In this document: piece after piece, positions 22,900-38,146 of the stretch | How the letters are laid out: every line of letters starts with the position of its first letter | Numbering within the stretch: position 1 is the stretch's first letter | Assembly: GCA_002726865.1 (NCBI GenBank) | Contig: PBSW01000035.1 | Span: forward strand, 1-38,585 | Direction: 5' to 3' | Length of the DNA stretch: 38,585 bases | Origin: Candidatus Bathyarchaeota archaeon | GTDB taxonomy: Archaea; Thermoproteota; Bathyarchaeia; TCS64 | The notes under the pieces: generated by a model | Told to the model about the DNA's origin: nothing | The model's input: the letters and a program-made list of their open reading frames with translations, nothing else | Databases searched by the model: none | Position numbers and translations under genes: made by a program

Positions 22900-23775
22900 G
22901 TGGAGGATAAGCCTGGCTTCCCCCCTAACGTTGCTCTTCTGGCTAGCATCATATCTGTCTCAACGGCATCGATCCTCATAAGAATGAGTGGTGCCCCCCC
23001 CCTCGCTATTGCTACCTACCGCCTCGTCTTCTCGACCTTCATCCTACTCCCCTTCTACGTCCGATCTGGGGGGTTCAATCGTCTGTTAGCATCCAGCTTC
23101 AGGGATCTTCTGTCTCTTGCTACGGTAGGTGTTGTCCTGGCCATCCACTTTGGCTCCTGGATCACGAGCCTCAGCCTAACCTCAGTGGCGAGCTCGGTGC
23201 TCTTTGTCCACGTTGATCCTATCTTCGTGGCGGTAGTATCTCACTTTTACCTCAAGGAGAGAATCGCGCGGGGGACTCTGGTAGGAATAACCCTGGCGTT
23301 TTTAGGCGCATCGACTATTGCCTTTAGCGACGCAGGTGTCAGTGATGTAAGCCTTCTAGGTGACTTTCTCGCGTTGATTGGGGCACTCATGCTGGGGTTC
23401 TACATTCTTGCTGGGAGGAGATTGCGCCAAAGCCTCAACTTGGTAAGCTATGTGACGCCTGTCTACGCCTTTTCTGCTGTAACTCTTGCCCTGGCGAGCC
23501 TAGCAGGCGGGACTAGCCTCTGGCCTTATCCCCAAAAAGAGCTCCTCCTGTTTCTCATGATTGCTCTCGTTCCCATGATTTTCGGTCATACCGTCTACAA
23601 CTGGACCCTGAAATGGCTCTCCGCCCCCCTGGTATCCATCAGCCTTCTGGGGGAGCCGGTGGGGGCCACGATCCTAGCCTATATTTTTTTCGATGAGGTC
23701 CCCTCGATTCTCGCTCTTTCCGGGGGGGCGCTTATACTTCTAGGAATCTGTCTATGTGTCCGCAGCGCGCGCTAA
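22900..23775 (+). CDS. EamA/DMT-family permease
   Basis: A 291-residue membrane protein with ten hydrophobic helices arranged as two EamA repeats (first about 10-135, second about 148-285). The segments IATYRLVFSTFILLPF, SWITSLSLTSVASSVLFVHVDPIF and the second-repeat APLVSISLLGEPVGATILAYIFFDEVPS are typical of drug/metabolite exporters. The cargo (amino acids, nucleotides or drugs) is unknown. The start is GTG 22900. The stop is followed by a T6 run (23781-23786), a likely terminator, and a T9 run at 23843-23851. The CGCGCG motif overlaps its last codons. Confidence 0.9.
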   Translation: MEDKPGFPPNVALLASIISVSTASILIRMSGAPPLAIATYRLVFSTFILLPFYVRSGGFNRLLASSFRDLLSLATVGVVLAIHFGSWITSLSLTSVASSVLFVHVDPIFVAVVSHFYLKERIARGTLVGITLAFLGASTIAFSDAGVSDVSLLGDFLALIGALMLGFYILAGRRLRQSLNLVSYVTPVYAFSAVTLALASLAGGTSLWPYPQKELLLFLMIALVPMIFGHTVYNWTLKWLSAPLVSISLLGEPVGATILAYIFFDEVPSILALSGGALILLGICLCVRSAR

Positions 23776-23990
23776 CTTGGTTTTTTCATACTGATACTAT
23801 AACAAATCAATTTCAGGAAATATAGTAATCGAAAATGCAGCATTTTTTTTTATGGAAGAATAACACTCAGGCGCGATGGAATAACGAATCCTTTGACATT
23901 ATCCCGCTATCTTTGAACCAGAAACGGCACTGCCTTTCATTTCTCTGCTATTAGTTTAAGTGGTTTAAGCCCGTCTCTCCCTTGAACTAG

Positions 23991-25709
23991 ATGAGCGCCA
24001 ACACCCAGGTCTCCAAGGTCCTCTACCAGATCGGGGAGGTCCTCATCATCAAGGACGACAAGTTCAGGAGTAAAGCCTTCAATACCGCCTCTCAGAGGAT
24101 CTCCGGCCTTACCGAAGACATAAGGAAGATCTATGATCGGGGAGAACTCCAGACGATCCAGGGGGTTGGAAAGGGCATCGCTGCTGTTATAGCAGAACTC
24201 CTTGATACTGGGGACTCCACGGTCCTGAATGAGCTCGAGGCGAGCATTCCCCCTGGGATTCGGGCGATGATGGCTCTTGAGGGGATAGGCCCCAAGAAGG
24301 CGGTGCTCCTCCAGAAGGCGCTGGGTACACTCTCCATCGAAGACCTTGAGAAAGCAGCGAAGGGGGGTAAAGTCCAAGTGATCAAGGGATTCGGGAAGAA
24401 GACCGAGGCCAACATCTTGGAGGCCATTGATGTGCTTAGGAGCCATCAAGGCAGGTTTCTGTTAGGGGCGGTGGTCCCCCTAATTGAGGAGATTAAGGCG
24501 TACCTGTTGGAATCGAACGCTGTCCTAGCTGTGGAGGTTGCCGGCTCAGCAAGGCGGAGGAGGGAGACGGTGGGTGACCTCGACATCCTCGTCTCCTCAT
24601 TGATGCCTAATGCAGTGTCCGAGAGGTTTATATCAATGTCACCTGTTACGCGGGTCGTATCTCACGGTTCCACGAGGAGCACCGTCTTTATGGAGGACTC
24701 ACTTCAAGTCGATCTGCGGGTGGTCCACCCGAGGTCTTATGGGGCTGCCCTGCAGTACTTTACGGGCTCCAAGGATCACAACATTAAGCTACGTAACATA
24801 GCCGTCAGGGCGGGGTACAAGCTCAACGAGTACGGCCTCTTCTATAGGGAGACCGACGAGGTCGTTATGGGCGATAACGAGAAAGGGATCTACCGAGCTC
24901 TGGAGATGGATTGGATTCCTCCGGAGCTCCGGGAGAATCGAGGGGAGATTGAGGCAGCGGTAAGGGACACGCTCCCCAACTTAGTCACAATGGACGACAT
25001 CAAAGGAGACTTCCATATTCACAGCACCTGGAGTGATGGCGCCGCTAACATCGAGGCCATGGCAGAAAAGGCACTGAGCCTGGGGCTCGAGTTCATGGCC
25101 ATCTGCGACCACACCAAGAGCCTCTCCATCGCGAACGGTCTCAATGAGGACCAGCTCAGGGAGCAGATGAAACAGATTGACCGAATCAACGAGGATCTAG
25201 ATGGTTTCACCATCCTAAAAGGGACAGAGTGCGATATTCTCCCAGACGGGCGTATGGACCTTCCAAACTCCCTCCTTAGGGACCTGGACTTTGTGGTGGG
25301 GAGCGTCCATAGTGCTTTCCGTCAGGACGCCGATACGATGACAAAAAGGATCCTCAAGGCGATCCACAATGAGAACGTTGACTGTATCGGTCACCCAACG
25401 GGGAGGCTCATTCAGAAGCGTCGCTCCTATGATGTGAACCTTGGGAGGGTCTTCGAGGCTGCAGCAGAGCAAGGGGTTATGATGGAGGTCAACTCATACC
25501 CCGAGAGGCTAGACCTCAATGACGTCAACTGCAAGGCGGCGAAGGAACAGGGCGTAAAAATGGTCATTGGAACCGACAGCCATTCGCCTAGCCAAATGGA
25601 GTTTATGTCTTTTGGAGTATCCGTGGCCCGGAGGGGATGGCTTGAGAAGGAGAACGTGGCGAATAGCTACTCTCTGGAAGAACTTGAGCCACTTTTATCA
25701 GGAAACTAG
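23991..25709 (+). CDS. polX: DNA polymerase X with C-terminal PHP domain
   Basis: A 572-residue family X polymerase for base-excision gap filling. Two helix-hairpin-helix regions (IQGVGKGIAAVIAEL about 56-70 and LEGIGPKKA about 96-104) lead into the nucleotidyltransferase site: AGSARRRRETVGDLDIL with D196/D198 and VDLRVV with D241. The PHP domain from about 340 has FHIHSTWSDG (H342, H344), CDHTKS, KGTECDI, VGSVHSAF, IGHPTGR and IGTDSHSP. All metal ligands are present, so 3'-5' exonuclease or AP-endonuclease activity, as in Bacillus and Thermus PolX, is expected. The stop TAG shares a CTAG palindrome with the stop of the convergent DedA-family gene. Confidence 0.95.
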   Translation: MSANTQVSKVLYQIGEVLIIKDDKFRSKAFNTASQRISGLTEDIRKIYDRGELQTIQGVGKGIAAVIAELLDTGDSTVLNELEASIPPGIRAMMALEGIGPKKAVLLQKALGTLSIEDLEKAAKGGKVQVIKGFGKKTEANILEAIDVLRSHQGRFLLGAVVPLIEEIKAYLLESNAVLAVEVAGSARRRRETVGDLDILVSSLMPNAVSERFISMSPVTRVVSHGSTRSTVFMEDSLQVDLRVVHPRSYGAALQYFTGSKDHNIKLRNIAVRAGYKLNEYGLFYRETDEVVMGDNEKGIYRALEMDWIPPELRENRGEIEAAVRDTLPNLVTMDDIKGDFHIHSTWSDGAANIEAMAEKALSLGLEFMAICDHTKSLSIANGLNEDQLREQMKQIDRINEDLDGFTILKGTECDILPDGRMDLPNSLLRDLDFVVGSVHSAFRQDADTMTKRILKAIHNENVDCIGHPTGRLIQKRRSYDVNLGRVFEAAAEQGVMMEVNSYPERLDLNDVNCKAAKEQGVKMVIGTDSHSPSQMEFMSFGVSVARRGWLEKENVANSYSLEELEPLLSGN

Positions 25710-26359
25710 AGGAAGAGCCTCTCAAACCAGCCAAAGATGAGGTCTCTGCTCTTTTTCCAGGTCACCAGGATAGAGAAAATGAGGGATCCCCCTACCATGA
25801 CAAATGAGGCCGTCATGCCTCCTACAGAACCAGTGAGACTTGTGAACACGATGCCTCCAATCACGGCCCCCAGGGAATACAAGGTCGTCTTCCCGATACA
25901 CTCTACTATAAAGAGCTTCGCGAATGGAAGCTTTCTCGACCCTGCAAGGAGCACAATAGGGGTGTCAGGCAGCGGAGTCACCGCCACCAGGAGGACCGCC
26001 CAGAGGCCGTACTTTTTGATCCATTTGCTCAACCGGCTGTCGTCCTCGAGATTCTCCTCGAAGCTTTCAGCGACTCCCCAGCCCAGGAAATATGTACTGA
26101 TCTCCCCAATGGCTGCCCCGATTCCGGCGCTGGCGCCGAGGACGAGCGGATTGTAAATTGAGGTGAGAGGGAGGAACATGGGGATAAACATATCTCGTGC
26201 CACCACCGTGAGATGGCTCATCATTGAGGCGATGAATATTCCACCGAGACCGAAATGGCCCAGGGTCTCAGGATTCACAGTCCAACGCCAGAGCAAGACC
26301 CCTGAGAGGATCGCGACAATGGCGACCGCCGTCAGACTTATTATAGCTTTTGGCTTCAT
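25706..26359 (-). CDS. DedA/VTT-family membrane protein
   Basis: A 217-residue integral membrane protein of the DedA/SNARE-associated (VTT) family. The central GASAGIGAAIGEISTYFLGWG and VAVTPLPDTPIVLLAGSRKLPFAKLFIVECIGK match the re-entrant loops of DedA proteins (family motifs G-x-x-x-G-x-x-x-x-Y and P-x-x-P). About five to six hydrophobic segments are present. Family members are lipid scramblases or flippases that recycle carrier lipids, which would fit the polysaccharide genes beginning 200 nt further on, though no operon link is visible. ATG 26359 has GAGGAG a few bases upstream, a clear ribosome binding site. Confidence 0.8.
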   Translation of the reverse strand: MKPKAIISLTAVAIVAILSGVLLWRWTVNPETLGHFGLGGIFIASMMSHLTVVARDMFIPMFLPLTSIYNPLVLGASAGIGAAIGEISTYFLGWGVAESFEENLEDDSRLSKWIKKYGLWAVLLVAVTPLPDTPIVLLAGSRKLPFAKLFIVECIGKTTLYSLGAVIGGIVFTSLTGSVGGMTASFVMVGGSLIFSILVTWKKSRDLIFGWFERLFL

Positions 26360-26570
26360 CTTCTCTCCTCGAAAGGATGTTTTTTACCTCGTTATATCAG
26401 AGGCGAGATTTCAGGTTATTGGTGGAGTAGGGGGTTATAGAATACCCCTCCTGGCTATCCTTAGGAGCTGAGACTCTGCCTTCGCGCGCGAGCCCTAATA
26501 ATTTGCGATAACCCAACGTTGATTGACAGAAATCAGTATTTTTATCATAATATTCAACTCAGACAGAGTC

Positions 26571-28085
26571 TTACGTTCTTGCTTGAGTTTTCTCGATAAT
26601 TGTTAGGAACAGATTGAAGAATGGCTGGAGAGGTCCAGTGGATGAAAGGATTCGTCGTAGATTTGTTACGTCAGATATTGTTAGCGTTTTGAATATCACA
26701 ATCATTGCCAGATAAATAAATGCGTAAGCTGCACCGCCTAGGAAAAGTTGGGGCCAGTCCTGGAGTTTCGTAATGGACAGAAGAAGATAGATTGGGGCGA
26801 ATGCGATGGCTGAGGAGAGATAGATCTTTGCGGAAGATCGCCAGTCTAAGGAGAAACCAAAGTTTCGGCGGATCCAGAATAAGATGTACAAGACTCCTGC
26901 AAGTGTAGCGGTTATCATTGTGATCAGGAGGCCGGTTACGCCCATCCAGGGGATGAGAATGAGGCTCAGGGGTAGCCCGACGATGAAGACCAGTATGCTG
27001 CTGATGAAGGGCGGCCTCGTTTTTCCCTGGCCGTTGAGGAGGTTGCCGTTTATCTGGTAGCCTAGTCCTATGAGTAGGAATGGGACGCATACCAGTTTGA
27101 GGTAGCTGGATGTATTCACATATGAGCTGCCGTAGACGATTTGGACGATGGAGTCGGATAAGAGAATAATAACTGAAGTTACGGGCACTGTGATTAATGC
27201 AGAGTATTTTACGGCGTTACGGTATACTGATGCTAGTTGCCCGTTGTCGCTTCGGGGTATTTTTGAGAATAGGGGAAATAGGACTGTGACGATGGGTATC
27301 GTGAAGAAGGCGATAAGTACGGGGAAATTCATTGCGGCCTGGTAGTTTCCTACGTCGGAGGGAGTCACGTTTAGGGCCATTAGGAAGTTGTAGATTTGCA
27401 TGATGGAGCCGTTGATGATGAGGGCGAGGAATAGGGGGGCTCCGTATGAGAGTAGTGTTTTTGATGCTTCGATGAAGTTGATTGATGATAAGGTCTCGGT
27501 TCCCTGTTTTAGGTAGGTGAATTGTATGATCGCGACTCCGACGATGCCGGTCACTAGTATGGCGGCGGTATGTCCTATGGCTGCTCCAAGGGCCCCATAT
27601 CCGAAATAAACGAGCAGGGGGGAGAGGGTGCTCTTTATGATGGATTGGATTATTACCATGAGGCTTACAAGTTTCATTCTTTCGTATCCGATGAAGATTG
27701 ATCTGGCGGTATTGAGGAGGGACATGGCGATGAGGTTTAGGGACGAGACCTGGATCAGTACTTGGATTTCGGGTTGATGGAAGACCTGATTGGCTAGATA
27801 TCCTGATGAGATGTAGATGAGGACTGTGAGGATTGCACTGGCTAGGATGTTGAGTGTGAGGCCTGCTTTGAGGAAAGAGTTTGCTTCCGAGGTTCTGCCT
27901 TCGGAGCGGTATTGTGCCAGATATTTGATGAGGGCGCCGTTGATGCCGAGGTCGATGAATAATTCTGCGATGGATATGGGGATCATTGCTATAGTAATCT
28001 GTCCATAGTTGGTGGATCCAAGAAATCTAGCTACGATGATTATGGATATGGCGGTGATTAGTGTGGATGAGATTTGACCGATCAT
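26571..28085 (-). CDS. Polysaccharide flippase (Wzx/MATE-like)
   Basis: A 504-residue protein with about 12-14 membrane helices in the polysaccharide-transporter (Wzx, RfbX) pattern. It has a first helix ending ARFLGSTNYGQIT, ELFIDLGINGALIKYLAQYRSEG, and the conserved PIVTVLFPLFSKI and LNGQGKTRPPF segments. It would flip lipid-linked oligosaccharide across the membrane, consistent with the sugar-nucleotide genes that follow. ATG 28085 cuts into the first helix. The same frame stays open for at least 45 codons upstream with plausible residues (EKITDYLQQSARGSLIL) but has no ATG, GTG or TTG. A frame starting ATG about 28183 (MQLIQEIRRESRNA) would join it by a one-base shift, so the 5' end may be frameshifted. 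Confidence 0.85.
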   Translation of the reverse strand: MIGQISSTLITAISIIIVARFLGSTNYGQITIAMIPISIAELFIDLGINGALIKYLAQYRSEGRTSEANSFLKAGLTLNILASAILTVLIYISSGYLANQVFHQPEIQVLIQVSSLNLIAMSLLNTARSIFIGYERMKLVSLMVIIQSIIKSTLSPLLVYFGYGALGAAIGHTAAILVTGIVGVAIIQFTYLKQGTETLSSINFIEASKTLLSYGAPLFLALIINGSIMQIYNFLMALNVTPSDVGNYQAAMNFPVLIAFFTIPIVTVLFPLFSKIPRSDNGQLASVYRNAVKYSALITVPVTSVIILLSDSIVQIVYGSSYVNTSSYLKLVCVPFLLIGLGYQINGNLLNGQGKTRPPFISSILVFIVGLPLSLILIPWMGVTGLLITMITATLAGVLYILFWIRRNFGFSLDWRSSAKIYLSSAIAFAPIYLLLSITKLQDWPQLFLGGAAYAFIYLAMIVIFKTLTISDVTNLRRILSSTGPLQPFFNLFLTIIEKTQART

Positions 28086-28644
28086 GAGGATGAGGCTGCC
28101 TCTGGCGGATTGCTGGAGGTAGTCGGTAATTTTTTCGGACAGGAAGCATTCCTCGATTCTCGGCGTATTTCCTGAATGAGTTGCATTGGGGGATATATGA
28201 GTGCCTCGAATGGTGAGGTTTGTTGTTTGAGGTTATGTTTGGAGCGCGCGGTAGGAGTTCAAGTCTTGGTCGATGGATTTAATCGGGAATGACAATTGTA
28301 TCGAAAAGGGGGGAAGAAGAGGGTCTCGACAAAAAGGGCGTTTTTGTGGCAGCCTTCCAGAAAGATCCACAGGTTCACCGCGACTATAATTATCGGTCTG
28401 CTGCTCTAAACCATACAGTCCCGGAATAGGCATCTTCTTCCGACGGGGGATCAGATCAGAAACCCCGTTACGAATGTAAGATTCTATTGAAGTTGTTATC
28501 AACAGGATAATATTATCATTAATTGTTGAAAAAGAAAACAGAAAATGTTCTGAGAAATAAATAGAGAAAATAAATATAGCGCATAAACGATTGTCACCTA
28601 ATAGAAAGATAATGAATATTACTATTCGGAGGATGTTGTAGTTG
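28086..28644. other. Intergenic region at the start of the polysaccharide island
   Basis: Holds the probable N-terminal coding extension of the flippase (to about 28185), a CGCGCG (28245-28250), the 12-bp perfect palindrome GATAATATTATC (28506-28517) and, before ugd, a GGAGG (28628-28632). A TTG-started 89-residue minus-strand frame (28233-28502) is not convincing. Confidence 0.4.
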
Positions 28645-29991
28645 ATGAATATTGCAGTTCTGGGGATGGGTTATGTGGGCCTGACTGCAGGCATGGCTTT
28701 CGCCAAACACGGCTTTAAGACTATTTGCACCACGACGACGCCTCTCAAGGCTGAGAATCTGAACAAGGGTGTTCCGCCCTTCTATGAGCCTGGTCTTGAA
28801 TTGCTTGTGAAGGAGATGGTGGATAAGGGGCTGTTGAGTGGGAGCATCGATAACGTGGATGCAGTGAGGCGGTCTGATGTGACCTTTATCTGCGTGGGCA
28901 CTCCTCCTCAGCCGGACGGTTCCGCGGATCTTTCAGCTATTGAGGCGGTGTCACGAGACATTGGAATGGCTCTCAGGAACAAGGATGTCTATCATGTGGT
29001 TGTTGCGAAGAGCACGATCCCGCCAGGCACTACAGACGACATTATTCTTCCAACAGTTGAGAAATACTCGGGGAAGAAAGTCGGCGTAGATTTCGGATTA
29101 TGTATGAACCCTGAATTCCTCCGACAGGGGGATGCTGTGCACGATAGTCTGAATCCCGATCGAATCGTCATAGGGGAATACGATATTAGGAGCGGAGATG
29201 TACTCGAAGAGATATATCGAGAATACGACTGCCCCAAGATGAAATGTGACATCAAGGCTGCGGAGCTGATCAAATACGCTGCCAACTCACTTCTGGCAAC
29301 CAAGATATCATTCGCCAACGAATTCTCCCGGATATGCGAAAAGTTCAACATCGACGTTTATGAAGTGATGAAAGGAGTTGGCTTGGACTTCAGGATTAGT
29401 CCAAAATTCCTTGATGCTGGATGTGGATTCGGAGGCTCTTGCTTTCCAAAAGACGTCAATGCAATAGTAGCGTTGGCGAGAAGCATTGAAGTTGAAACTC
29501 CGCTTCTGGACGCAGTTCTACTAACTAATGAAATGCAACCTTCACATTTTATTGAGATAATTGAGGGAGCAACAGGGAATCTTGCGGGGAAAGTTGTAGC
29601 CGTCCTTGGGTTAGCGTTTAAACCAAATACAGGAGATATTAGAGAGACAAGAGCCCTACCAATAATTCAGTTACTTTATGAAAAAGGAGCGAGAGTTAAA
29701 GCATATGACCCTAAAGCGATTGACAATTTTAAAAGAATAACAAATCTACCTATTGAGTATTATGAGCACTGGAAAGATGCACTAAAAGATTCAGATTTCG
29801 TTGTTATTCAGTCTGATTGGAACGAAATTAAAAATATTTCGCCACTTTACTTTAAAAACCTCATGAAAAAACCGATCATAATTGATGGTCGACGTACATA
29901 TGACCCAAACGTGATGATAGAACAAGGCATCGATTATTATGGTATAGGATGGAAAAATTTAAGTCCAACACGAGTTACGCAAAATAGTTAA
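28645..29991 (+). CDS. ugd: UDP-glucose 6-dehydrogenase family protein
   Basis: A 448-residue nucleotide-sugar dehydrogenase that oxidises UDP-glucose (or a related UDP-sugar) to the uronate. Visible are the Rossmann start MNIAVLGMGYVGL, FICVGTPPQPDG, STIPPGTT, NPEFLRQGDAV (E157), the Lys of ELIKYAANS (K210) and the catalytic Cys of GCGFGGSCFPKD (C266), plus the C-terminal LGLAFKPNTGDIRET. An oddity is that the second strand, normally ending in an Asp that binds the NAD ribose, reads ICTTTTPLK with no acidic residue. A TTG at 28642 is also possible; GGAGG at 28628 fits either. From about 29520 the base composition becomes strongly AT-rich. galU follows after 8 nt. Confidence 0.92.
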   Translation: MNIAVLGMGYVGLTAGMAFAKHGFKTICTTTTPLKAENLNKGVPPFYEPGLELLVKEMVDKGLLSGSIDNVDAVRRSDVTFICVGTPPQPDGSADLSAIEAVSRDIGMALRNKDVYHVVVAKSTIPPGTTDDIILPTVEKYSGKKVGVDFGLCMNPEFLRQGDAVHDSLNPDRIVIGEYDIRSGDVLEEIYREYDCPKMKCDIKAAELIKYAANSLLATKISFANEFSRICEKFNIDVYEVMKGVGLDFRISPKFLDAGCGFGGSCFPKDVNAIVALARSIEVETPLLDAVLLTNEMQPSHFIEIIEGATGNLAGKVVAVLGLAFKPNTGDIRETRALPIIQLLYEKGARVKAYDPKAIDNFKRITNLPIEYYEHWKDALKDSDFVVIQSDWNEIKNISPLYFKNLMKKPIIIDGRRTYDPNVMIEQGIDYYGIGWKNLSPTRVTQNS

Positions 29992-29999
29992 TTTGGAGA

Positions 30000-30881
30000 T
30001 TGAGTATCATAATAACTAAAGCAGTTATCCCAGCAGCTGGAAGGGGAACAAGACTACTACCAGCAACCAAAGAGACACCAAAGGAAATGCTCCCAATTTT
30101 TAGTGAAAACATACAAAGAGAACTGACAGTCAAACCCATCTTACAAGTGATTTTCGAACAGATGTACGATTTTGGAGTAAGAGAGTACTGCTTTATCGTT
30201 GGAAAAGGGAAAAGTAGTCTTATTGACCATTTTACAATAGACAAAACGGAATTAGCATATCTAAATGAGAAAGAAAAGCAATCCTTATTTCTTGAATTAT
30301 CTAATATCCAACATAAACTTACGTCTTCATCACTAGTATTCATTAATCAACCAGAACCACGAGGTTTTGGAGATGCAGTTCTGAAAGCTAGACCATACAT
30401 TACGGATACGTTTCTTGTTCAAGCAGGGGATACACTGATCTTGTCAAAAAATAATCAACATATGAATAGGCTCTGGAATGTCCATAAGAAATATGATAAT
30501 GCCGCAACAATAATGGTTCAAGAAGTTGATGATCCACGCCAATTTGGCATTGTGTTAGGAAATGAAGAAGAAAAAGGAGTAATTTCGGTTGATAAAGTGA
30601 TAGAAAAATCGGAATCTCCGCCCTCAAAGATCGCGATTACAGCGTTATATTTATTTTCACCCTCAATTTTTAACGCTCTAGAATTAACTTCAGAGGGGTC
30701 GGGAGGGGAAGTCCAACTCACTGATGGCATACAGAAAATGATAGATTCAGGGCTGAACGTCATGGCCGTCGAATTGAAAAAAAACGAATATTGGCTCGAT
30801 ATTGGTAACCCCGAATCCTATTGGAGTGCACTCAATCGATCACGAAACAATATACTAAATTCGAAAACAATTATTAAATAG
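30000..30881 (+). CDS. galU: UTP--glucose-1-phosphate uridylyltransferase
   Basis: A 293-residue nucleotidyltransferase making UDP-glucose, the substrate of the adjacent dehydrogenase. The N-terminus has VIPAAGRGTRLLPATKETPKEMLPI, the GalU signature. Later come EPRGFGDAVLKARPYI, LVQAGDTLI with a metal Asp (GDT instead of the more usual GDD), FGIVLG, VIEKSESPPSKIAITALYLF with Lys and GGEVQLTDGI. The length is typical. The start is probably TTG 30000; GGAG at 29995 is too close to be ideal and no in-frame ATG exists before residue 30, so the start is uncertain. It forms an operon with ugd and converges on the dehydratase operon. Confidence 0.92.
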   Translation: MSIIITKAVIPAAGRGTRLLPATKETPKEMLPIFSENIQRELTVKPILQVIFEQMYDFGVREYCFIVGKGKSSLIDHFTIDKTELAYLNEKEKQSLFLELSNIQHKLTSSSLVFINQPEPRGFGDAVLKARPYITDTFLVQAGDTLILSKNNQHMNRLWNVHKKYDNAATIMVQEVDDPRQFGIVLGNEEEKGVISVDKVIEKSESPPSKIAITALYLFSPSIFNALELTSEGSGGEVQLTDGIQKMIDSGLNVMAVELKKNEYWLDIGNPESYWSALNRSRNNILNSKTIIK

Positions 30882-30947
30882 AAGTGAATCACTTGGAAAG
30901 AAAATGATTGTTAATAGATACAAAAACAATTAAGATATACCTATTTT

Positions 30948-32138
30948 TTAGAATAGTTTCTTGAAAAATTGAATAATATAGTCTAAATCATCCTCGCTCA
31001 AATATTGATGACAACCAATATAGAATCCATTTTTACCGACGAATTCAGCATTGGGCAGTCTTCCACTATATTTTCGCTTTAGATGGTTATAGGATGGCTG
31101 ATGGGTCGGGATACAACTAAAAAGGGGCCTTGACTCTATCCCTTTTTTTTCTAAACGAGATAATAACTTGTTTCTTGAGATTTTTGAATCATTTAATAAT
31201 ACTAAGGGATAAGCCATGTAACTAATGTCCTTAGAAAACTTGGGCAGTTGAATAATATCAGAATATTTGGCTAGTCCATCATTCAACACTTTTACATTTT
31301 CTTGTCGCTTTTTTATTATTGAATCGATTCGTGACAACTGGGCTAAACCTATAGCGGCCATAAATTCGGTTGTTTTAAAATTATATCCAATATGGGAATG
31401 TGTAAAACGAGGATCGACATTATCAATACTGTTGTAGGGACATATCCCTTGGGATCGCGTACAAATTTGGCAATCACACAGTCTTCCATTTGCTTTTATC
31501 CGCCGAGCCAATTTCGCAAGTTCAACATCGCTTGTTGTTATGGCTCCCATCTCACCTACCTGAATATTATGAGCAATATAGAACGAGAATGCAGATACTT
31601 TTGATAATGCCCCACATTTTCTTCCGTTTGAAACAGTCCCATGGGCTTGAGCAGAATCTTCGAAGGCTATAAGATTATTTTTTTTACAAATATTATTAAG
31701 TTTTTCCATATCCGCAGGATATCCCATCAAATGAACGGGGAGAACCATAGAATAATCATTAATTTGTCTTGTATTTTCAAGATGTTCCGAAACAAGTTCA
31801 GGGTTAATTACAAATGTATCCGGATCTATATCCACGAAAATTGGATTAAATCCGGTTAATGCAATCGCGTTTACAGTAGCGGCGAAGGTTAAGGGACTGG
31901 TAATAATCTTCGTATTAACTTTAACGCCCTGTTGTTTTAATGATTCAAGCCCGAGTATAAGTGCGGAAGTTCCAGAATTTGTTAAAATTGTGTATTTAGT
32001 TTCAAGATATTTAGAAAAGTTATTTTCAAACTTCATAACTTTTTTAGATTCAGTTATTCGATTTGAATCTACTACTTGTTGAATGTACTTTTTCTCTTCA
32101 ATTCCGAATCTAAAATCACCTATGCTAATCCATTTCAA
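30948..32138 (-). CDS. DegT-family sugar 3-dehydratase (RfbH/E1- or ColD-like), His in place of PLP Lys
   Basis: A 396-residue DegT/DnrJ/EryC1/StrS fold protein. LTNSGTSALILGLESL, TSPLTFAATVNAI, VHLMGYPADM and FEDSAQAHGT are typical of the fold. At the Schiff-base Lys it reads FYIAHNIQVGEMG (H190), as in E1/RfbH (FYPAHHITMGEGG) and ColD, which use PMP to remove the C3 hydroxyl of a 4-keto-6-deoxy sugar nucleotide rather than transaminate. After it come C221, C223, C226 and C233 and then THSHIGYNFKTTEFMAAIGLAQL. RfbH/E1 has a similar Cys set for a [2Fe-2S] cluster and ends THLGYN-K-T. ColD lacks the cluster. No E3-type reductase gene is seen nearby. It is the last gene of the operon with two SDRs. 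Confidence 0.82.
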   Translation of the reverse strand: MKWISIGDFRFGIEEKKYIQQVVDSNRITESKKVMKFENNFSKYLETKYTILTNSGTSALILGLESLKQQGVKVNTKIITSPLTFAATVNAIALTGFNPIFVDIDPDTFVINPELVSEHLENTRQINDYSMVLPVHLMGYPADMEKLNNICKKNNLIAFEDSAQAHGTVSNGRKCGALSKVSAFSFYIAHNIQVGEMGAITTSDVELAKLARRIKANGRLCDCQICTRSQGICPYNSIDNVDPRFTHSHIGYNFKTTEFMAAIGLAQLSRIDSIIKKRQENVKVLNDGLAKYSDIIQLPKFSKDISYMAYPLVLLNDSKISRNKLLSRLEKKGIESRPLFSCIPTHQPSYNHLKRKYSGRLPNAEFVGKNGFYIGCHQYLSEDDLDYIIQFFKKLF

Positions 32139-32162
32139 CTCTTATCCCTCACTAAGAGAGTT

Positions 32163-33131
32163 TCAACTATTTATCACATTTTTATACCAAGATATTGTAT
32201 GGGTTAATCCCGATTCCAACGAATATTGATATTTCCAGTCTAAGATAGTTTTAGCCTTACTAATATCCGCAATTTTCCTGAGTTGCCCTTCAGGTTTGTC
32301 TTCATCAAATACTAAGTTCACGTCACTATTACACAACTTCCTAATAAGATAGGCTAAATCATATATTGAAATTTCTTCATCAGTACCAATATTTATTGGT
32401 TTAGCTACGGGATATTTCTCTATGAGTTCCATCATTGCCCTTACAACGTCTTTTACATAGACAAAGGATCTTGTCTGTTTCCCACTACCCCAAATTGTAA
32501 CGGTATTTTCAGATTCATTTATCTTTCGAATAATAGCAGGTATCACATGAGAAGTTTTAATATCAAAATTGTCTCGAGGACCGTAAATATTACTGGGCCG
32601 AATGATCGAAATTTTCATACCATAATCTTCAAAATATAATCTTGCTTGTAATTCTGCAACTCTTTTCGCCCAACCGTATCCAAAAACTGTCGGTTCAGGA
32701 TCATCGACAAATCCTTCTCTTTCGGAAGTTGGTATAGAGGCATCACGCCCATATACGCAAATAGAGCTGGTGCATTGATATCGTTCAACGTTTTCAAGCC
32801 TAGCAGCATCTAGCATATTAAAATTAATTTGAGAATTCAATCGGAACATATCCGCATGGTGAGAGATATTGTATTCAATGCCGGCCACAGTAGAAGCTAA
32901 GTGAAAGACAGCATCCATTCCCTGAATGGCATTTTTACAATGGCTAATATTAGACAAATCAGCTTGAATATAGTCAAGTTTATTCTTTTTTGTTAGTAAT
33001 CTAAGTGGAAAATCACTTCTTCCAACCACCTTAACTTCTGCACCTTTCGCCAATAATAGATCAACCAGATGGGACCCTACAAAACCACCTCCACCAGTAA
33101 CTAAGGTTTTTTTCTCATCCCAATTGATCAT
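32163..33131 (-). CDS. NAD-dependent epimerase/reductase (GDP-L-fucose synthase / GME-like SDR)
   Basis: A 322-residue extended SDR. TLVTGGGGFVGSHL is the Rossmann motif. The active site has QCTSSICVYGRD, matching the Ser-Ser-x-Cys-x-Tyr of GDP-mannose 3,5-epimerase and close to the Ser-x-Cys of GDP-fucose synthase, and YGWAK (Y152, K156). RPSNIYGPRDNF and GSGKQTRSFVYVKDVV follow. Such enzymes epimerise and/or reduce 4-keto sugar nucleotides; ColC, which finishes GDP-colitose, belongs here. It lies between the 4,6-dehydratase-like gene (12 nt away) and the 3-dehydratase-like gene (24 nt), so a final epimerase/reductase role in a deoxy-sugar pathway is likely. Exact reaction unproven. Confidence 0.83.
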   Translation of the reverse strand: MINWDEKKTLVTGGGGFVGSHLVDLLLAKGAEVKVVGRSDFPLRLLTKKNKLDYIQADLSNISHCKNAIQGMDAVFHLASTVAGIEYNISHHADMFRLNSQINFNMLDAARLENVERYQCTSSICVYGRDASIPTSEREGFVDDPEPTVFGYGWAKRVAELQARLYFEDYGMKISIIRPSNIYGPRDNFDIKTSHVIPAIIRKINESENTVTIWGSGKQTRSFVYVKDVVRAMMELIEKYPVAKPINIGTDEEISIYDLAYLIRKLCNSDVNLVFDEDKPEGQLRKIADISKAKTILDWKYQYSLESGLTHTISWYKNVINS

Positions 33132-33143
33132 TTACATCGCCCA

Positions 33144-34157
33144 TTACTGTCGATAAGGGGTATTCTTAGTATTCGACACCCAACCTTTAAACGGGTCTTT
33201 AAAGGCGACATCACTGTTTATTGCCCATTCTATTGTCTTGGATAATCCGGCATTTATTGAGATCTGAGGTTTCCAGTTTAGAAGATCAAAAGCTTTCTGA
33301 CTATCAGAAAATAATCTATTAACGTCAAACGGCCGATATCTACTCTTATCAATTTTTATCTCAATCCGTTTTCCCATAAGTTTTGCTATAAGTAGGCCTA
33401 AATCCTTGATAGTAATATCCATACCACTACCAATATTGATTGTTTCCCCTATCGCGTTCTTATTATCCAAAGCGAGAATAATGCCTCTTGCAGTGTCTGA
33501 GACATATGTAAAATCTCGTGAACTGTCAATGTTACCTAGTTGGAGATGTTTTAACCCATTTTTTAGTTGGAAAATAATCTCAGGTATGATATAGGGTTGA
33601 GTAATATTCGGTCCAAATGAGTTAAAAGGTCGAATGATAACGGCAGGTAAGCCTTGTTCTTTATGAAGAGTAAAAATTGCCCGATCGGCAGCTAATTTAC
33701 TTACGGCATAAGTTGAATGAGGACGTATTGGATGATTTTCATCCATGGGAACATACTTTGCGGTCCCATAAACTTCGCTCGTCGAAATGTATACAAATCG
33801 CTTTAAATCACCGGATGTTGCCGATTGGCATGCTAGATTTAGAGTCCCCAATGTGTTTACATTAAAAAATTCTTGAGGATGTTGATAACTATCAGGAATA
33901 AAAGGGAAGGCAGCTAAGTGAATTATGTATTCTTTATCCTTTACAACTGCGGACACCAATTGTTCGTCACAGATGTCCCCCTCAATAACCTCAACATTAT
34001 GATTTCTTACTAGATATTCCGGTTTACCCGATGAGAAATTATCTAATATCGTCACATTGCTCCCCATTTGACTTAATTGGTGGACAACTTCGGATCCGAT
34101 AAATCCGGCACCACCGGTTACTAATATCTTAGAATTCCTTAGGTCCAATCTTTTCAC
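33144..34157 (-). CDS. NAD-dependent epimerase/4,6-dehydratase-like SDR
   Basis: A 337-residue extended SDR with ILVTGGAGFIGSEV, VTILDNFSSG (Asp for NAD), IIHLAAFPFIPDS, YISTSEVYGTAKYVPMDE and YAVSK (Y150, K154). The catalytic triplet Thr126-Ser127-Glu128 is of the 4,6-dehydratase type (GMD has SSE, RmlB TDE), whereas 4-epimerases usually have S-S-A/T-x-YG. So it more likely makes a 4-keto-6-deoxy sugar nucleotide than simply epimerises. It starts with GTG 34157 and has a TTTAAAAAG box about 39 nt upstream. It is the first gene of the three-gene operon and faces a 453-nt divergent region. Confidence 0.8.
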   Translation of the reverse strand: MKRLDLRNSKILVTGGAGFIGSEVVHQLSQMGSNVTILDNFSSGKPEYLVRNHNVEVIEGDICDEQLVSAVVKDKEYIIHLAAFPFIPDSYQHPQEFFNVNTLGTLNLACQSATSGDLKRFVYISTSEVYGTAKYVPMDENHPIRPHSTYAVSKLAADRAIFTLHKEQGLPAVIIRPFNSFGPNITQPYIIPEIIFQLKNGLKHLQLGNIDSSRDFTYVSDTARGIILALDNKNAIGETINIGSGMDITIKDLGLLIAKLMGKRIEIKIDKSRYRPFDVNRLFSDSQKAFDLLNWKPQISINAGLSKTIEWAINSDVAFKDPFKGWVSNTKNTPYRQ

Positions 34158-34610
34158 CTTGACAATATTTGGATATCATTAAGGTATCTCGTCTTTTTAA
34201 ACGTGCTCAGAGTTAATAAATTCTGAAAAGGTAAAATATTTGTAACAATATATACAAATAGTTCCATTAAAAATAGTTCAAAGAATAGGACAGAATATCT
34301 TCAAAATAAAGAACCATTATAAAATACACCAGTTTGTAAAAGGGTGCTTAAAAATTCGAAAGTAGTATTACCATCATTCAATACATATAGCACGCGCGCG
34401 CTGAATAAAGTTCAACAAATAAATATTGCAGCAACATTGTTCCCTATTGATTTTTACACGCTAGACATACAAGACGTTAAAAGAATTAGATAAAATATAT
34501 TGTTTTTATTACATCACTGATGACGAATAATACTACTAGTTTAATTAACTTTAAAAAGATGGGCTATATTTGGGAAAACATATTTATCAGTTTATAATAT
34601 TGGTACTCCG
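34158..34610. other. Divergent AT-rich regulatory region
   Basis: Between the dehydratase operon (minus) and the methyltransferase (plus). No coding frame. It contains TTTAAAAAG (minus, about 34193-34200), ATATTTATC (34580-34588), about 27 nt before ATG 34611, and a conspicuous CGCGCGCG (34393-34400) in otherwise AT-rich DNA. Confidence 0.4.
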
Positions 34611-35381
34611 ATGAGCCAACTTAAAAAACATGAAAGAAGGCTATTTGATAATTTGGCTAACTTCCGTCCGAAAGCATATCAAGTCATGGGAATTAAAGAT
34701 ATCCAAAAAATGGGTTACATTACCCATATCTTATCACAATATATAGATGAAGGTAAATGTTATAATTTTTTAGAAGCTGGATGTGGTACTGGTAGATATG
34801 GAAAATTCTTGCTAGATGTTTTTCCAAAGTTAAAAGTAAAAGGATTGGACATTAGTCCGAAAATGGTGAAATTAGCAAACGTCGATGCCCCTCTACGATT
34901 CGAAGCTGAAATTGGGGATTTGGAAAATGTACACTTATTCGAAGAACAAACATTTGACATTATTGGGTGTTTTGGAATATTACACCATTTTCCGTCTCTT
35001 TTCACAGTTTTAGAAAATATGTCAAAATGGTTAAAACCAGATGGATATATAGTAATTAGTGAACCTAGTGGAAACAATTTTGTTAATAAATTTTCAAAAA
35101 TAATTTTACGCATTCTCACAGTATTATTAAAAAATGACTTTTTTATTAGACATTTTGTTGCTACACCAAACGAAACGAATCACCAGTTCAATACATATGC
35201 GAAAAATCTTTTGAAAACTGAATATAAAATAATACTATATGACTTTGTATATATTCGTTCTAACGTTAAAAAGAGAGTGTTAATAGAATACATAAAAGAT
35301 GTACTTTACAATTGGACATATAGATTCACACCTTTTCAGTATAAAGGTAATGAAATGATCATCTGTGCTCAGAAAAAATAA
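34611..35381 (+). CDS. Class I SAM-dependent methyltransferase
   Basis: A 256-residue Rossmann methyltransferase. Motif I is FLEAGCGTGRYG (53-64), then VKGLDISPKMVKLA, FEAEIGDLENV, IIGCFGILHHFPSLFTVLENMSKWLKPDGYIVISEP, all standard for UbiE/Methyltransf_11-like enzymes. The C-terminal part (INKFSKIILRILTVLLKN and beyond) is variable and would set substrate choice. The location in the sugar island suggests O- or C-methylation of a glycan or lipid carrier, but this is inference. The codon use is very AT-rich, like its neighbours. A TATA-like ATATTTATC is about 27 nt upstream of the ATG. Confidence 0.85.
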   Translation: MSQLKKHERRLFDNLANFRPKAYQVMGIKDIQKMGYITHILSQYIDEGKCYNFLEAGCGTGRYGKFLLDVFPKLKVKGLDISPKMVKLANVDAPLRFEAEIGDLENVHLFEEQTFDIIGCFGILHHFPSLFTVLENMSKWLKPDGYIVISEPSGNNFVNKFSKIILRILTVLLKNDFFIRHFVATPNETNHQFNTYAKNLLKTEYKIILYDFVYIRSNVKKRVLIEYIKDVLYNWTYRFTPFQYKGNEMIICAQKK

Positions 35382-35444
35382 AATCATGCGCACGAAACGT
35401 TTTCCATTTCAAAAATAACTCGGTTTTGGTCGCAATCGCCCGAG

Positions 35445-36944
35445 TCAAGCAGTATTCCACCATGTGCTGGGACCCTTTCTACTATTATTTACAGAGGTTG
35501 TAATAATTTTCAGTAGTTTTATTCCATATTTTAAATCTTCAAGTGATTTTATCTTTTGGACAAATCTATAAGGATATGACAGAAAACGATTATTCAAGAA
35601 TTTTTTATGGGCTAAATTTTGTAGTTGAATTAGCTCCTCACTATTAAAATACTGAGTACTACAACCTCCACCAAATTCAGTTGGATGATTTCCTTCTTCT
35701 GGACGATAATAACCCTCATTAATATAAATATCATACATTCGAGTGAAAGGAAGAGGAGTGGCAATATAAAATATGGCCCAATCAATCCCACTATTAATGG
35801 CATAGTCAATAGTGTCCTCGATTGATTGAAGAGGTTCATATGGAAAACCTATAATAAATGTAGATAAAGTGTATAACCCAATTTTATTACAATAATCTAT
35901 TATATCTAGTGCATGGTTTCTATCGTACCGTTTACCAATAAAGTTTAAAGTATTCTCATTTCCTGATTCAAGACCAAAAGTCAATCTATAACAACCACTT
36001 GTTTTCATACGTTGGATAAGAGGCTTATTCAATGTCCAAATAGCTACTCCATTTGGTGTTGTCCATTTAATATCGATTTCTCTTCGAATAATTTCGTCAC
36101 ATATTTTCTCCATTCTCGTTCTATCCAGAGTAACGTTATCATCTAAAAAATGAATCTCCCTAATTCCATATGATTTCTGTAAAAACTCAATTTCATCCAC
36201 AACTTTAGATGGAAGTCTAGGCCTCCATTTGTAACCCCATATTGAATGAATTGAACAAAAAACACAATCATATGGACACCCTCTACTGGTTATCATCGTT
36301 GTATACGGAAGTCTCATTGCATAGTTCACCCCTTTACGATTGGCTTCAAAATATTTTTCCATAGGAAGAAGGTGTCTAGCGGGAAAAGGTATTTCATCAA
36401 TGTCTTGAAAATATGGTCTTTTTTGGGTAAATATCACTTCATTTCGTTTTTTCATCCATACACCAGGAACATCTTGAAAAGATCCGTCGTTTTCAAATTC
36501 ATGAATTATTTCGAGAAATGTACGTTCACCTTCTCCTTGAACAACTAAATCAACATTATCATCGTCAAGTACTATGTGCGGTGCTGATGAAGGATGAGCA
36601 CCACCATGAACAACAAGAGTGTCGGGACAAGTTTGTTTTACAATTTTTGCTATTTCATGAGCATTATTAGAATATGAAGTAAACATCTGTGAAATGCCCA
36701 CAACATCTGGTTCATAACTGGAGATAAATCGTTCAATATCATCGTCACTTAAACCAAACCTTACAAAATCATTTTTAGTGATAGGATTTTCTATCCCTTC
36801 AGCTAATGCATCAAGAATGGAAACTTTGTAATTCTCTTGCTCTAAATATGCTGCAATATATGCGAGACCTAAAGGGGGATTGGGGCCAATCGTTTCATTT
36901 CTTGTTGTGGTAACAGGTGGGTTAATTAATAAAATACGGGTCAA
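35445..36944 (-). CDS. B12-binding-domain radical SAM protein
   Basis: A 499-residue protein with an N-terminal cobalamin-binding-like domain (ILLINPPVT, PPLGLAYIAAYLE, VVGISQMF, VVHGGAHPS, DLVVQGEGE) and a radical SAM core with RGCPYDCVFC (C223, C227, C230; C-x3-C-x2-C). Core motifs continue with IREIHFLDDNVTLD, WTTPNGVAIW and LTFGLESGNENTL. This architecture (class B) performs methylations or ring rearrangements on unactivated carbons. No substrate is evident. The island context suggests sugar or lipid modification. It starts at TTG 36944, and the TTTATTTT 27 nt upstream, the probable TATA box, is also the target duplication of the adjacent insertion sequence. Confidence 0.9.
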   Translation of the reverse strand: MTRILLINPPVTTTRNETIGPNPPLGLAYIAAYLEQENYKVSILDALAEGIENPITKNDFVRFGLSDDDIERFISSYEPDVVGISQMFTSYSNNAHEIAKIVKQTCPDTLVVHGGAHPSSAPHIVLDDDNVDLVVQGEGERTFLEIIHEFENDGSFQDVPGVWMKKRNEVIFTQKRPYFQDIDEIPFPARHLLPMEKYFEANRKGVNYAMRLPYTTMITSRGCPYDCVFCSIHSIWGYKWRPRLPSKVVDEIEFLQKSYGIREIHFLDDNVTLDRTRMEKICDEIIRREIDIKWTTPNGVAIWTLNKPLIQRMKTSGCYRLTFGLESGNENTLNFIGKRYDRNHALDIIDYCNKIGLYTLSTFIIGFPYEPLQSIEDTIDYAINSGIDWAIFYIATPLPFTRMYDIYINEGYYRPEEGNHPTEFGGGCSTQYFNSEELIQLQNLAHKKFLNNRFLSYPYRFVQKIKSLEDLKYGIKLLKIITTSVNNSRKGPSTWWNTA

Positions 36945-36967
36945 GACACGAATAATTATCCGTAATG

Positions 36968-36975
36968 AAAATAAA
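36968..36975 (+). repeat. Left target-site duplication (and TATA of the radical SAM gene)
   Basis: AAAATAAA abuts the left terminal repeat and recurs exactly at 37979-37986. On the minus strand it reads TTTATTTT, 27 nt upstream of the radical SAM start. Confidence 0.65.
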
Positions 36976-36989
36976 TGCTTTGTGGATTA
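36976..36989 (+). repeat. Left terminal inverted repeat of the IS
   Basis: TGCTTTGTGGATTA, matched 13 of 14 by the right end in inverted orientation. Confidence 0.8.
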
Positions 36990-37029
36990 TCCATAAGGTT
37001 TATTTCGCGTTTACGTTAATAGTACCTAC

Positions 37030-37908
37030 ATGCCCACAGACTGGAGAAAAACAGACGAACGCCTCATCAGACGCGGAGAACTCATACTGGAACTGAGCTT
37101 CGTAGAGAACTACCAGAACGAACTCGACGCCATGAACCACGGAAAAGAAGGACGCCCCTACAAGCTCACCCCCACCTACATCCAGTTCCTAACCGCCTTC
37201 CGAATCCTCTATGGAGTACCCTACCGCTAGCTAGAAGGATTCACCCGAGCCCTCCACAGGCTAGTGCCCCAGCTACCCCCAGGCGACTACTCGGGCCTCA
37301 GGAAACGCAGCCTCGACCTGAACCCCGACCCCTACATGGCGCTGAGAGAAAGCGACGAGCCCATCACCATCGCGGTGGACTCCACCGGCGTCAAGGTCCG
37401 CTTGGCCGGAGGCTGGGTGGAACGAAAGCACGGGAAGAAGAAGCGATATGTGAAGCTCCACTTCGCCGTCGACGTGGAGGCCAAGGAGGTGGTGGCGATG
37501 GAGGTATCCACCGACGATGTGCACGACGTCAAGGCCTTCCCTGGTCTGGTGAAAGAGGCCAATGAGAAGAGGCGGATCGCCTGCTGGCTGGGGGATGGTG
37601 CCTACGACTCGGGGGTGGTATTCGAGGAGCTGGAGGAGCGGGGGATAGAGGCGGTGATCAAGCCTCGGAGGAACAGCAGGCCGGATACGCGGTCTCCGGC
37701 GAGGGGGAGGGGGGTGCGGGAGTTTCAGGAGCTGGGGTATGAGGGTTGGGCGGTGGAGAAGGGTTACGGCAGGAGGTGGGCTGTGGAGACGGCGTTCTCG
37801 ACGTTTAAGCGGTTGTTTGGGGAGTACAGCCTAGCCAGGAGTATGGATTGCATCACCCGGGAGCTGGTGGCCAAGGTATCCCTCTACAATATGCTGGTGA
37901 ACATGTGA
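37030..37908 (+). pseudogene. IS5-family DDE transposase interrupted by an in-frame TAG
   Basis: Frame 37030-37908 encodes about 292 residues of an IS5-type transposase. The N-terminal part ends GVPYR at codon 66, then TAG (37228-37230), and continues LEGFTRAL in the same frame. The family motif here is PYRQLEGF, so TAG replaces a Gln codon (CAG to TAG). Downstream the DDE site is intact: IAVDSTGVKV (first Asp), WLGDGAYDS (second Asp) and AVETAFSTFKRLFGE (Glu in the Y/R-x-x-E region). TAG ends several ordinary genes in this window (GINS, polX, galU), so it is a real stop and the transposase is probably inactive unless read through. The second part alone lacks the N-terminal DNA-binding region. 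Confidence 0.85.
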
Positions 37909-37964
37909 GACGGAAGAAAAGAGAACGGAAACGCCGAAGAACCAAACCCCGGAACCAACCAAGT

Positions 37965-37978
37965 TAATCCACTAAGCA
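37965..37978 (-). repeat. Right terminal inverted repeat of the IS
   Basis: Reads TGCTTAGTGGATTA on the minus strand, 13 of 14 identical to the left end. Confidence 0.8.
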
Positions 37979-37986
37979 AAAATAAA
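37979..37986 (+). repeat. Right target-site duplication
   Basis: AAAATAAA, identical to 36968-36975. Confidence 0.65.
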
Positions 37987-38146
37987 AAGATTTGATAAGA
38001 GTCCTTTATTCAAGAACGTATAATGACAGGAAAACAGCTATTTGTTTGCGCAGACGTTTGATATAGTTTTTCCACCCTTGTTATTTACTAGAATTAACTG
38101 TGTGCATGTAACCTTGGTTAATTATTTCCGTGATGCATATGCACGA

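Follow-up and report, generated by a model that had tools for sequence, protein, structure and literature searches.

3,6-Dideoxyhexoses are immunodominant sugars known from bacterial O-antigens. The enzymes that remove the C3 hydroxyl include E1/RfbH (DdhC), a CDP-4-keto-6-deoxyglucose 3-dehydrase with a [2Fe-2S] cluster and pyridoxamine 5′-phosphate (PMP), and ColD, a GDP-4-keto-6-deoxymannose 3-dehydrase without an iron–sulfur (Fe-S) cluster. A third, SpnQ, acts on a 2-deoxy substrate as the nucleoside diphosphate (NDP)-4-keto-2,6-dideoxyglucose 3-dehydrase of an antibiotic pathway; it uses Fe-S and PMP and is served by general ferredoxin/flavodoxin reductase pairs (PMC8987622). The same review presents E1, ColD and SpnQ as the well-characterized members in which His replaces the usual Lys, all of them C3 dehydrases. 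Here we analyzed the 38,585-nt contig PBSW01000035.1 of Candidatus Bathyarchaeota archaeon (assembly GCA_002726865.1), hereafter the window. A sequence-only reading had proposed a 3,6-dideoxyhexose pathway encoded by three closely spaced minus-strand genes: two short-chain dehydrogenases/reductases (SDR1 and SDR2) and a DegT-fold protein. The three open reading frames (ORFs) lie exactly where they had been placed, within 30948–34157, transcribed in the order SDR1, SDR2, DegT with spacings of 12 and 24 bases. By alignment and tree, the DegT protein is assigned to a third clade with its own four-Cys motif, neither E1/RfbH nor ColD.

The DegT fold is well matched (PF01041, 298 bits). Within the segment SFYIAHNIQVGEMG, His190 aligns with His220 of E1, at the position where aminotransferases have Lys, so the enzyme with His for the Schiff-base Lys was correctly recognized. 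Among solved structures, the best relatives by sequence are of the E1 dehydrase (PDB 3bcx, 4e-57; 3bb8, 8e-56), followed by Lys-type perosamine synthases (3e-43) and ColD (4e-40). The top NCBIfam model is RfbH, at 246.1 bits and below its cut-off of 423. An AlphaFold2 model (predicted local distance difference test, 92.6) returned E1 as the top Foldseek match (1.0e-35), in a near tie with a perosamine synthase (3.4e-35).

To describe conservation, we listed the best 120 of 4416 scored matches for DegT, of 7916 for SDR1 and of 2738 for SDR2. H190, C221, C223, C226 and C233 are invariant in 120/120 aligned DegT sequences, the window included, and in 121/121 of a second alignment of the best-120 listing. 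Because of the invariance in 120/120, we do not attribute the His and the four Cys to chance. The Cys motif, CxCx2Cx6C, is an addition to the sequence-only reading. The [2Fe-2S] ligands of E1, which we take to be Cys193, Cys251, Cys253 and Cys261 (of our E1 residue numbers, only His220 comes from a PDB title), overlap with this set only in part. Equivalents of C251 and C253 form a Cys-x-Cys at the same loop position in the window protein, whereas the third and fourth Cys are spaced otherwise and the C193 position is Ala163 (Ala in 117/121 sequences, Ser in 4/121); overall identity to E1/RfbH is ~29–31%. Three RfbH references (L054, L056, L057) keep the C193 equivalent and have CxCx7C. SpnQ was likened to the window protein by description, with L057, a Streptomyces RfbH-annotated protein whose gene cluster includes a 2,3-dehydratase, as its sequence stand-in. 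Four viral relatives, L036–L039, combine the four-Cys loop with a Cys at the C193 equivalent, and are possibly intermediate between the E1-type and window-type Cys sets.

Organism-named DegT relatives among the best 120 come from metagenome-assembled genomes (MAGs) of Hodarchaeales (an archaeal order), Mariniphaga and Candidatus Scalindua sediminis, and therefore the clade spans archaea and bacteria. Several relatives carry the automatic JGI name CDP-6-deoxy-D-xylo-4-hexulose-3-dehydrase. The four-Cys loop is probably an Fe-S site. Given how E1, ColD and SpnQ are known to work (PMC8987622), the simplest reading of a His-type DegT with Cys at the E1 Fe-S loop is an Fe-S-assisted C3 dehydrase, and we consider C3 dehydration likely.

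The Cys ligands unlike those of E1 would also suit an Fe-S enzyme of another reaction, such as 4-epimerization or 3,4-elimination for branched-chain sugars, or an SpnQ-like bifunctional aminotransferase. SpnQ can transaminate without a reductase (PMC8987622), and branched-chain sugars are hinted at by the genes for thiamine-diphosphate enzymes in a related Solidesulfovibrio plasmid set. With every well-characterized His-for-Lys member being a C3 dehydrase according to the same review, we give these other reactions a very small chance. The plasmid set itself (L055, 2946–8851) comprises a thiamine-dependent dehydrogenase pair, a GDP-fucose-synthase gene, an H-type DegT (CxCx2Cx8C), an SDR and a nucleotidyltransferase, and perhaps makes a branched-chain dideoxy sugar.

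We built a tree of 68 rows (43 His-type, 25 Lys-type) with careful IQ-TREE settings, including 20 of the 120 listed DegT relatives. Fragments (L017, L051), a protein with an intein-like insert (L043), two with the same motif as L036 (L037, L039) and matches below 90 bits, among them the second DegT of L048, were dropped. L061–L064 replaced L022–L025, and L021 was placed among the Lys-type rows without its motif having been read. The branch dividing His- from Lys-types has support of 93/78, and a single change accounts for the His/Lys states. The window protein did not join the Lys-type aminotransferases, the outcome that the sequence-only reading had named as fatal to it, although that placement is not formally rejected (p 0.076, see below). 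The His-types form two groups. One holds E1/RfbH, ColD and L063 (100/99), with E1/RfbH a clade inside it (100/100); the other holds the window clade, viral sequences and Solidesulfovibrio (98/94).

Two orthology assignments were tried and rejected. The window protein is not an E1/RfbH orthologue, as it lies outside the 100/100 clade, scores below the RfbH cut-off and has Ala at the C193 equivalent. Nor is it a ColD orthologue, as it lies outside the 100/99 ColD group and has four invariant Cys, of which ColD has none.

The three genes also appear to travel together. We inferred linkage from the exact lengths of the longest contigs in the three match lists (first 50 rows each). Five lengths (3852, 4286, 17054, 40699 and 58304) are common to the DegT, SDR1 and SDR2 lists; DegT and SDR2 further have 6089 and 27028 in common, and DegT and SDR1 have 19229 and 20621. 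When lengths were jittered 5000 times, a mean of 0.002 lengths, and never more than 1, coincided in all three lists. Judged in this way, five other contigs carry the three genes together.

Viral contigs yielded 18 DegT loci (14 His-type, 3 Lys-type and 1 fragment). The four-Cys loop is present in six of them, with an SDR2-like gene nearby in 5/6; the contig of the sixth, L035, stops right after the DegT gene. L036, L037 and L039 have identical motifs and scores and may be one case among the six. At L034, overlapping genes encode, in order, a Gmd above its cut-off (442 bits against 415), an H-type DegT 51% identical to that of the window with the same four Cys, and an SDR2-like protein (39%) with its Cys and His kept. 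Two GT10 fucosyltransferase-family genes lie upstream of this set. Colitose is 3-deoxy-fucose, and the colitosyltransferase WbgN tolerates GDP-fucose as well (PMC12723683). CTP_transf_3 and NeuB-family genes (L034, 10225–11752) adjoin the viral cassette, and L034 therefore encodes several glycan building blocks. Intein-like inserts were seen in two other viral contigs, in an H-type DegT after EDN (L043, 6447–8735) and in a Gmd-like protein (L041, 4667–6754).

SDR1 has the 4,6-dehydratase-like Thr-Ser-Glu site that had been read from it, in STSEVYG (residues 125–131), together with Y150xxxK154; Ser127, Glu128, Tyr150 and Lys154 are invariant in 121/121 sequences. The pattern [ST]SExnYx3K is the fingerprint of GDP-mannose 4,6-dehydratase, and GalE is without the acid (PMC8987622, Table 1). 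It is present in SDR1 in 121/121 and also in a LegB-named protein, and thus argues for dehydration, not for a particular nucleotide. By NCBIfam, SDR1 scored 275.4 bits against LegB (TIGR04180; cut-off 475), 178 against RmlB, 168 against GalE and 85.5 against gmd (TIGR01472; cut-off 415). In the likeness to a GDP-fucose synthase or GDP-mannose 3,5-epimerase, too, the early description of SDR2 held. Its top PDB matches are GDP-L-fucose synthases (2.5e-41), with GDP-mannose 3,5-epimerase lower (7e-37), although it reaches only 188 bits against GDPFucSynFcl (cut-off 500). Its S-x-C, YxxxK and SHVIPA His align with GDP-fucose synthase, which stood in for ColC in this comparison, and S122, C125, Y152, K156 and H195 are invariant in 121/121.

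LegB being the top model, SDR1 could instead be a LegB-type UDP-/GDP-GlcNAc 4,6-dehydratase and the product a 2-acetamido-2,3,6-trideoxy hexose. Three LegB-named plasmid proteins are 38–41% identical to SDR1, one of them beside LegC and neuC genes. However, SDR1 falls below the LegB cut-off, the four-Cys DegT clade pairs with a true, GDP-mannose-type Gmd in L034, and 0/10 proteins scanned around the cassette reached the cut-off of a hexosamine-pathway model; we regard a 2-acetamido substrate as improbable.

Taken together, the three genes probably form a cassette that would carry the whole three-step pathway to a colitose-like NDP-3,6-dideoxyhexose, a reading that we favor with some reserve. 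Three observations weigh against it. Forcing the window clade onto the Lys side of the tree costs 19.9 log-likelihood units, which speaks against that placement but is no formal rejection (approximately unbiased test, p 0.076). The five loci with close SDR1 homologues (57–60%) are divided, two adjoining a His-type DegT (L061, L062) and three a Lys-type (L071, L072, L075). Finally, the SDR2-like proteins of the Lys-type loci L071 and L072 retain Cys and His, with Arg for Lys156 in L072. The SDR1 search covered 398 genomes of the phylum, five of them with a match at E ≤ 1e-75; L075, from a separate comparison, was added to the set. Of two more distant homologues, one (L074) lies near a Lys-type DegT and the other (L073) near none.

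Such Lys-type neighbors raise the alternative that there is no single linear pathway, and that the SDR1 product feeds two branches, one for C3 deoxygenation (the H-type DegT, with a reductase encoded at another locus) and one resembling L-fucose synthesis, with SDR2 acting as epimerase/reductase. C4 reduction and C4 amination are mutually exclusive, yet the SDR homologues of L071 and L072 stand beside Lys-type aminotransferases, and the top PDB match of SDR2 is a GDP-fucose synthase. Set against this are the regular placing of an SDR2-like gene beside the four-Cys DegT in the viral loci, with the reservation that three of these may be one case, and the five contig sizes common to all three match lists. 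We think a split pathway unlikely. Both SDRs appear, from their gene neighborhoods, to be common to Lys-type and His-type DegT pathways, and it is therefore the His-type DegT that indicates 3-deoxygenation.

We next consider ColD-type sets in other archaea. A DegT search of 300 genomes of the phylum (E ≤ 1e-60) gave matches in three, G086 (two), G258 and G226; 4/4 proteins are His-type and 0/4 have the four-Cys loop. ColD homologues of the phylum adjoin SDR1- and/or SDR2-like genes. At L061 (G086), an SDR1-like protein (60%), a homologue of E. coli ColD (3e-80) and an SDR2-like protein (37%) are encoded in a row, while L062 has the first two kinds and L064 the last two. G086 has two ColD contigs, one of them with a Gmd-like gene ~29 kb away (395 bits), and the G258 ColD contig has Gmd-like genes at ~16 kb and ~12 kb (381 and 355 bits), all below the cut-off of 415; in G001–G004 the best Gmd scores were only 22–55 bits. 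A plasmid of Haladaptatus pallidirubidus (L059, 2016–5146) encodes a gmd over its cut-off (429 bits), an SDR and a ColD homologue annotated as an aminotransferase. Because this archaeon is in culture, it could be examined for a 3,6-dideoxy sugar. By homology, then, ColD-type sets are already present in public archaeal genomes (the Haladaptatus plasmid, G086, G258). In the literature searched, we recognized no description of an archaeal 3,6-dideoxyhexose set. The sequence-only statement that no archaeal route is described agrees with this search, but the sets themselves were already deposited.

The reactions, cluster, electron donor and product that we infer for the cassette are as follows. SDR1 would oxidize C4 and eliminate water across C5/C6 to give an NDP-4-keto-6-deoxyhexose. 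The H-type DegT, with PMP in place of Lys-bound pyridoxal 5′-phosphate (PLP), would form a Schiff base to the C4 ketone; His190 would abstract the C4′ proton of PMP and the C3 hydroxyl would depart. An Fe-S cluster carried by the four Cys next to the active site would pass electrons that reduce the 3,4-glycoseen. The electrons would probably come from ferredoxin, as none of the scanned ORFs was named as an E3-like reductase; rfbF, rfbG, gmd and an E3-like reductase, partners that would liken the locus to E1/RfbH or ColD systems, were all absent at cut-off among the 28/69 listed window ORFs scanned. In this respect the set would need general ferredoxin/flavodoxin reductase pairs, as SpnQ does. 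SDR2 would then invert C5 (Cys125/His195) and reduce C4 with NAD(P)H to an L-3,6-dideoxyhexose. From GDP-mannose this route would yield GDP-colitose, and from a gluco-configured NDP-hexose an ascarylose-like sugar; GDP-colitose specifically is a tentative suggestion, doubtful on present grounds. The sugar would be incorporated into surface glycans, with genes for a Wzx-type flippase, UDP-glucose dehydrogenase and a nucleotidylyltransferase alongside.

Of the explanations considered for the three genes, the pathway proposed in the sequence-only reading fits best, in a narrower form. Its DegT protein is an orthologue of neither E1/RfbH nor ColD, and more than one nucleotide and hexose would suit the set. 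SDR1 is LegB-like, and close homologues of it in related archaea also serve Lys-type aminotransferases.

Table 1. Features of the cassette (residue n of the DegT protein starts at 32138−3(n−1)).
Feature	Position	Strand	Description
SDR1	33144..34157	-	337 aa, GTG start; LegB-like 4,6-dehydratase-type SDR; S-T-S-E and YxxxK; putative step 1
SDR2	32163..33131	-	322 aa; GDP-fucose-synthase/ColC-like SDR; Cys125/His195 (by homology the acid-base pair for epimerization), with Y152/K156; putative step 3
H-type DegT protein	30948..32138	-	396 aa, TTG start; His190; C221, C223, C226, C233; putative PMP-dependent Fe-S NDP-4-keto-6-deoxyhexose 3-dehydrase, step 2
His190 codon (replaces PLP-binding Lys)	31569..31571	-	computed from the DegT frame and the alignment to E1
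Cys loop CxCx2Cx6C, codons 221–233	31440..31478	-	computed from the DegT frame; at the place of the E1 Fe-S loop

The contig is assigned to an archaeon by its PheT (archaeal type, 556 bits against a cut-off of 283), PheS, MCM (838 bits, under the model cut-off of 940) and GINS/Sld5 domain. G001, the closest genome compared, has 78% of sampled words in common with it, and window positions 23000–28128 are 92% identical to a G001 contig that ends at ~28.1 kb, where an AT-rich island (29000–38000) begins. Across roughly 29–37 kb, GC content drops from ~0.51 to 0.31–0.38. A DDE transposase gene lies on the right side of the island (37264–37908, plus strand), and the DNA surrounding it recurs in G001, G002 and G003. 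The cassette DegT is absent from G001 (95% complete), where the best match is 35%. Because of the GC drop, the G001 contig ending at the island edge and the missing DegT, the island is probably a horizontally acquired, variable surface-glycan region.

The same GC shift and the lack of the DegT in G001 might also signal a chimeric assembly, in which genes of bacterial or phage origin were misjoined to the contig of an archaeon. DNA of the genus flanks the island on both sides, however, the 90% cluster of the DegT draws on 8 contigs, 99% copies of SDR1 and SDR2 occur on other contigs, and the near relatives include the Hodarchaeales MAG. We consider a chimera highly improbable.

Other genes lie in or beside the island. 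A UDP-glucose 6-dehydrogenase-like gene and then a GalU-like nucleotidylyltransferase gene (28642–30881, plus strand) are convergent with the cassette, and the Wzx-type flippase gene is also alongside. A SAM methyltransferase (34611–35381, plus strand) and a B12-binding radical SAM protein (35445–36944, minus strand; its top model, for a P-methyltransferase family, gave 253 bits without reaching the cut-off) are encoded in the same island and might decorate the sugar or lipid.

In a survey with 303 archaeal genomes among those covered, most monosaccharides of the rare group, which includes tyvelose, paratose and abequose, were absent from Archaea; its authors cautioned that their profiles may have blind spots for archaea (PMC7725333). 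If the cassette works as proposed, 3,6-dideoxyhexose chemistry reaches archaea, and nature would have two ways of ligating an Fe-S site next to PMP. The combination of His and CxCx2Cx6C would then offer a sequence handle by which probable dehydrases among metagenomic "aminotransferases" could be re-annotated. More broadly, and with somewhat less than even confidence, we suggest that, besides the E1/RfbH/SpnQ and ColD kinds of PMP-dependent sugar 3-dehydrase, these proteins may form a third class, with their own Fe-S site and a general ferredoxin in place of a dedicated reductase. Found in archaea, some bacteria and viruses of prokaryotes, such enzymes would make colitose-like L-3,6-dideoxyhexoses, and archaeal surfaces would carry them.

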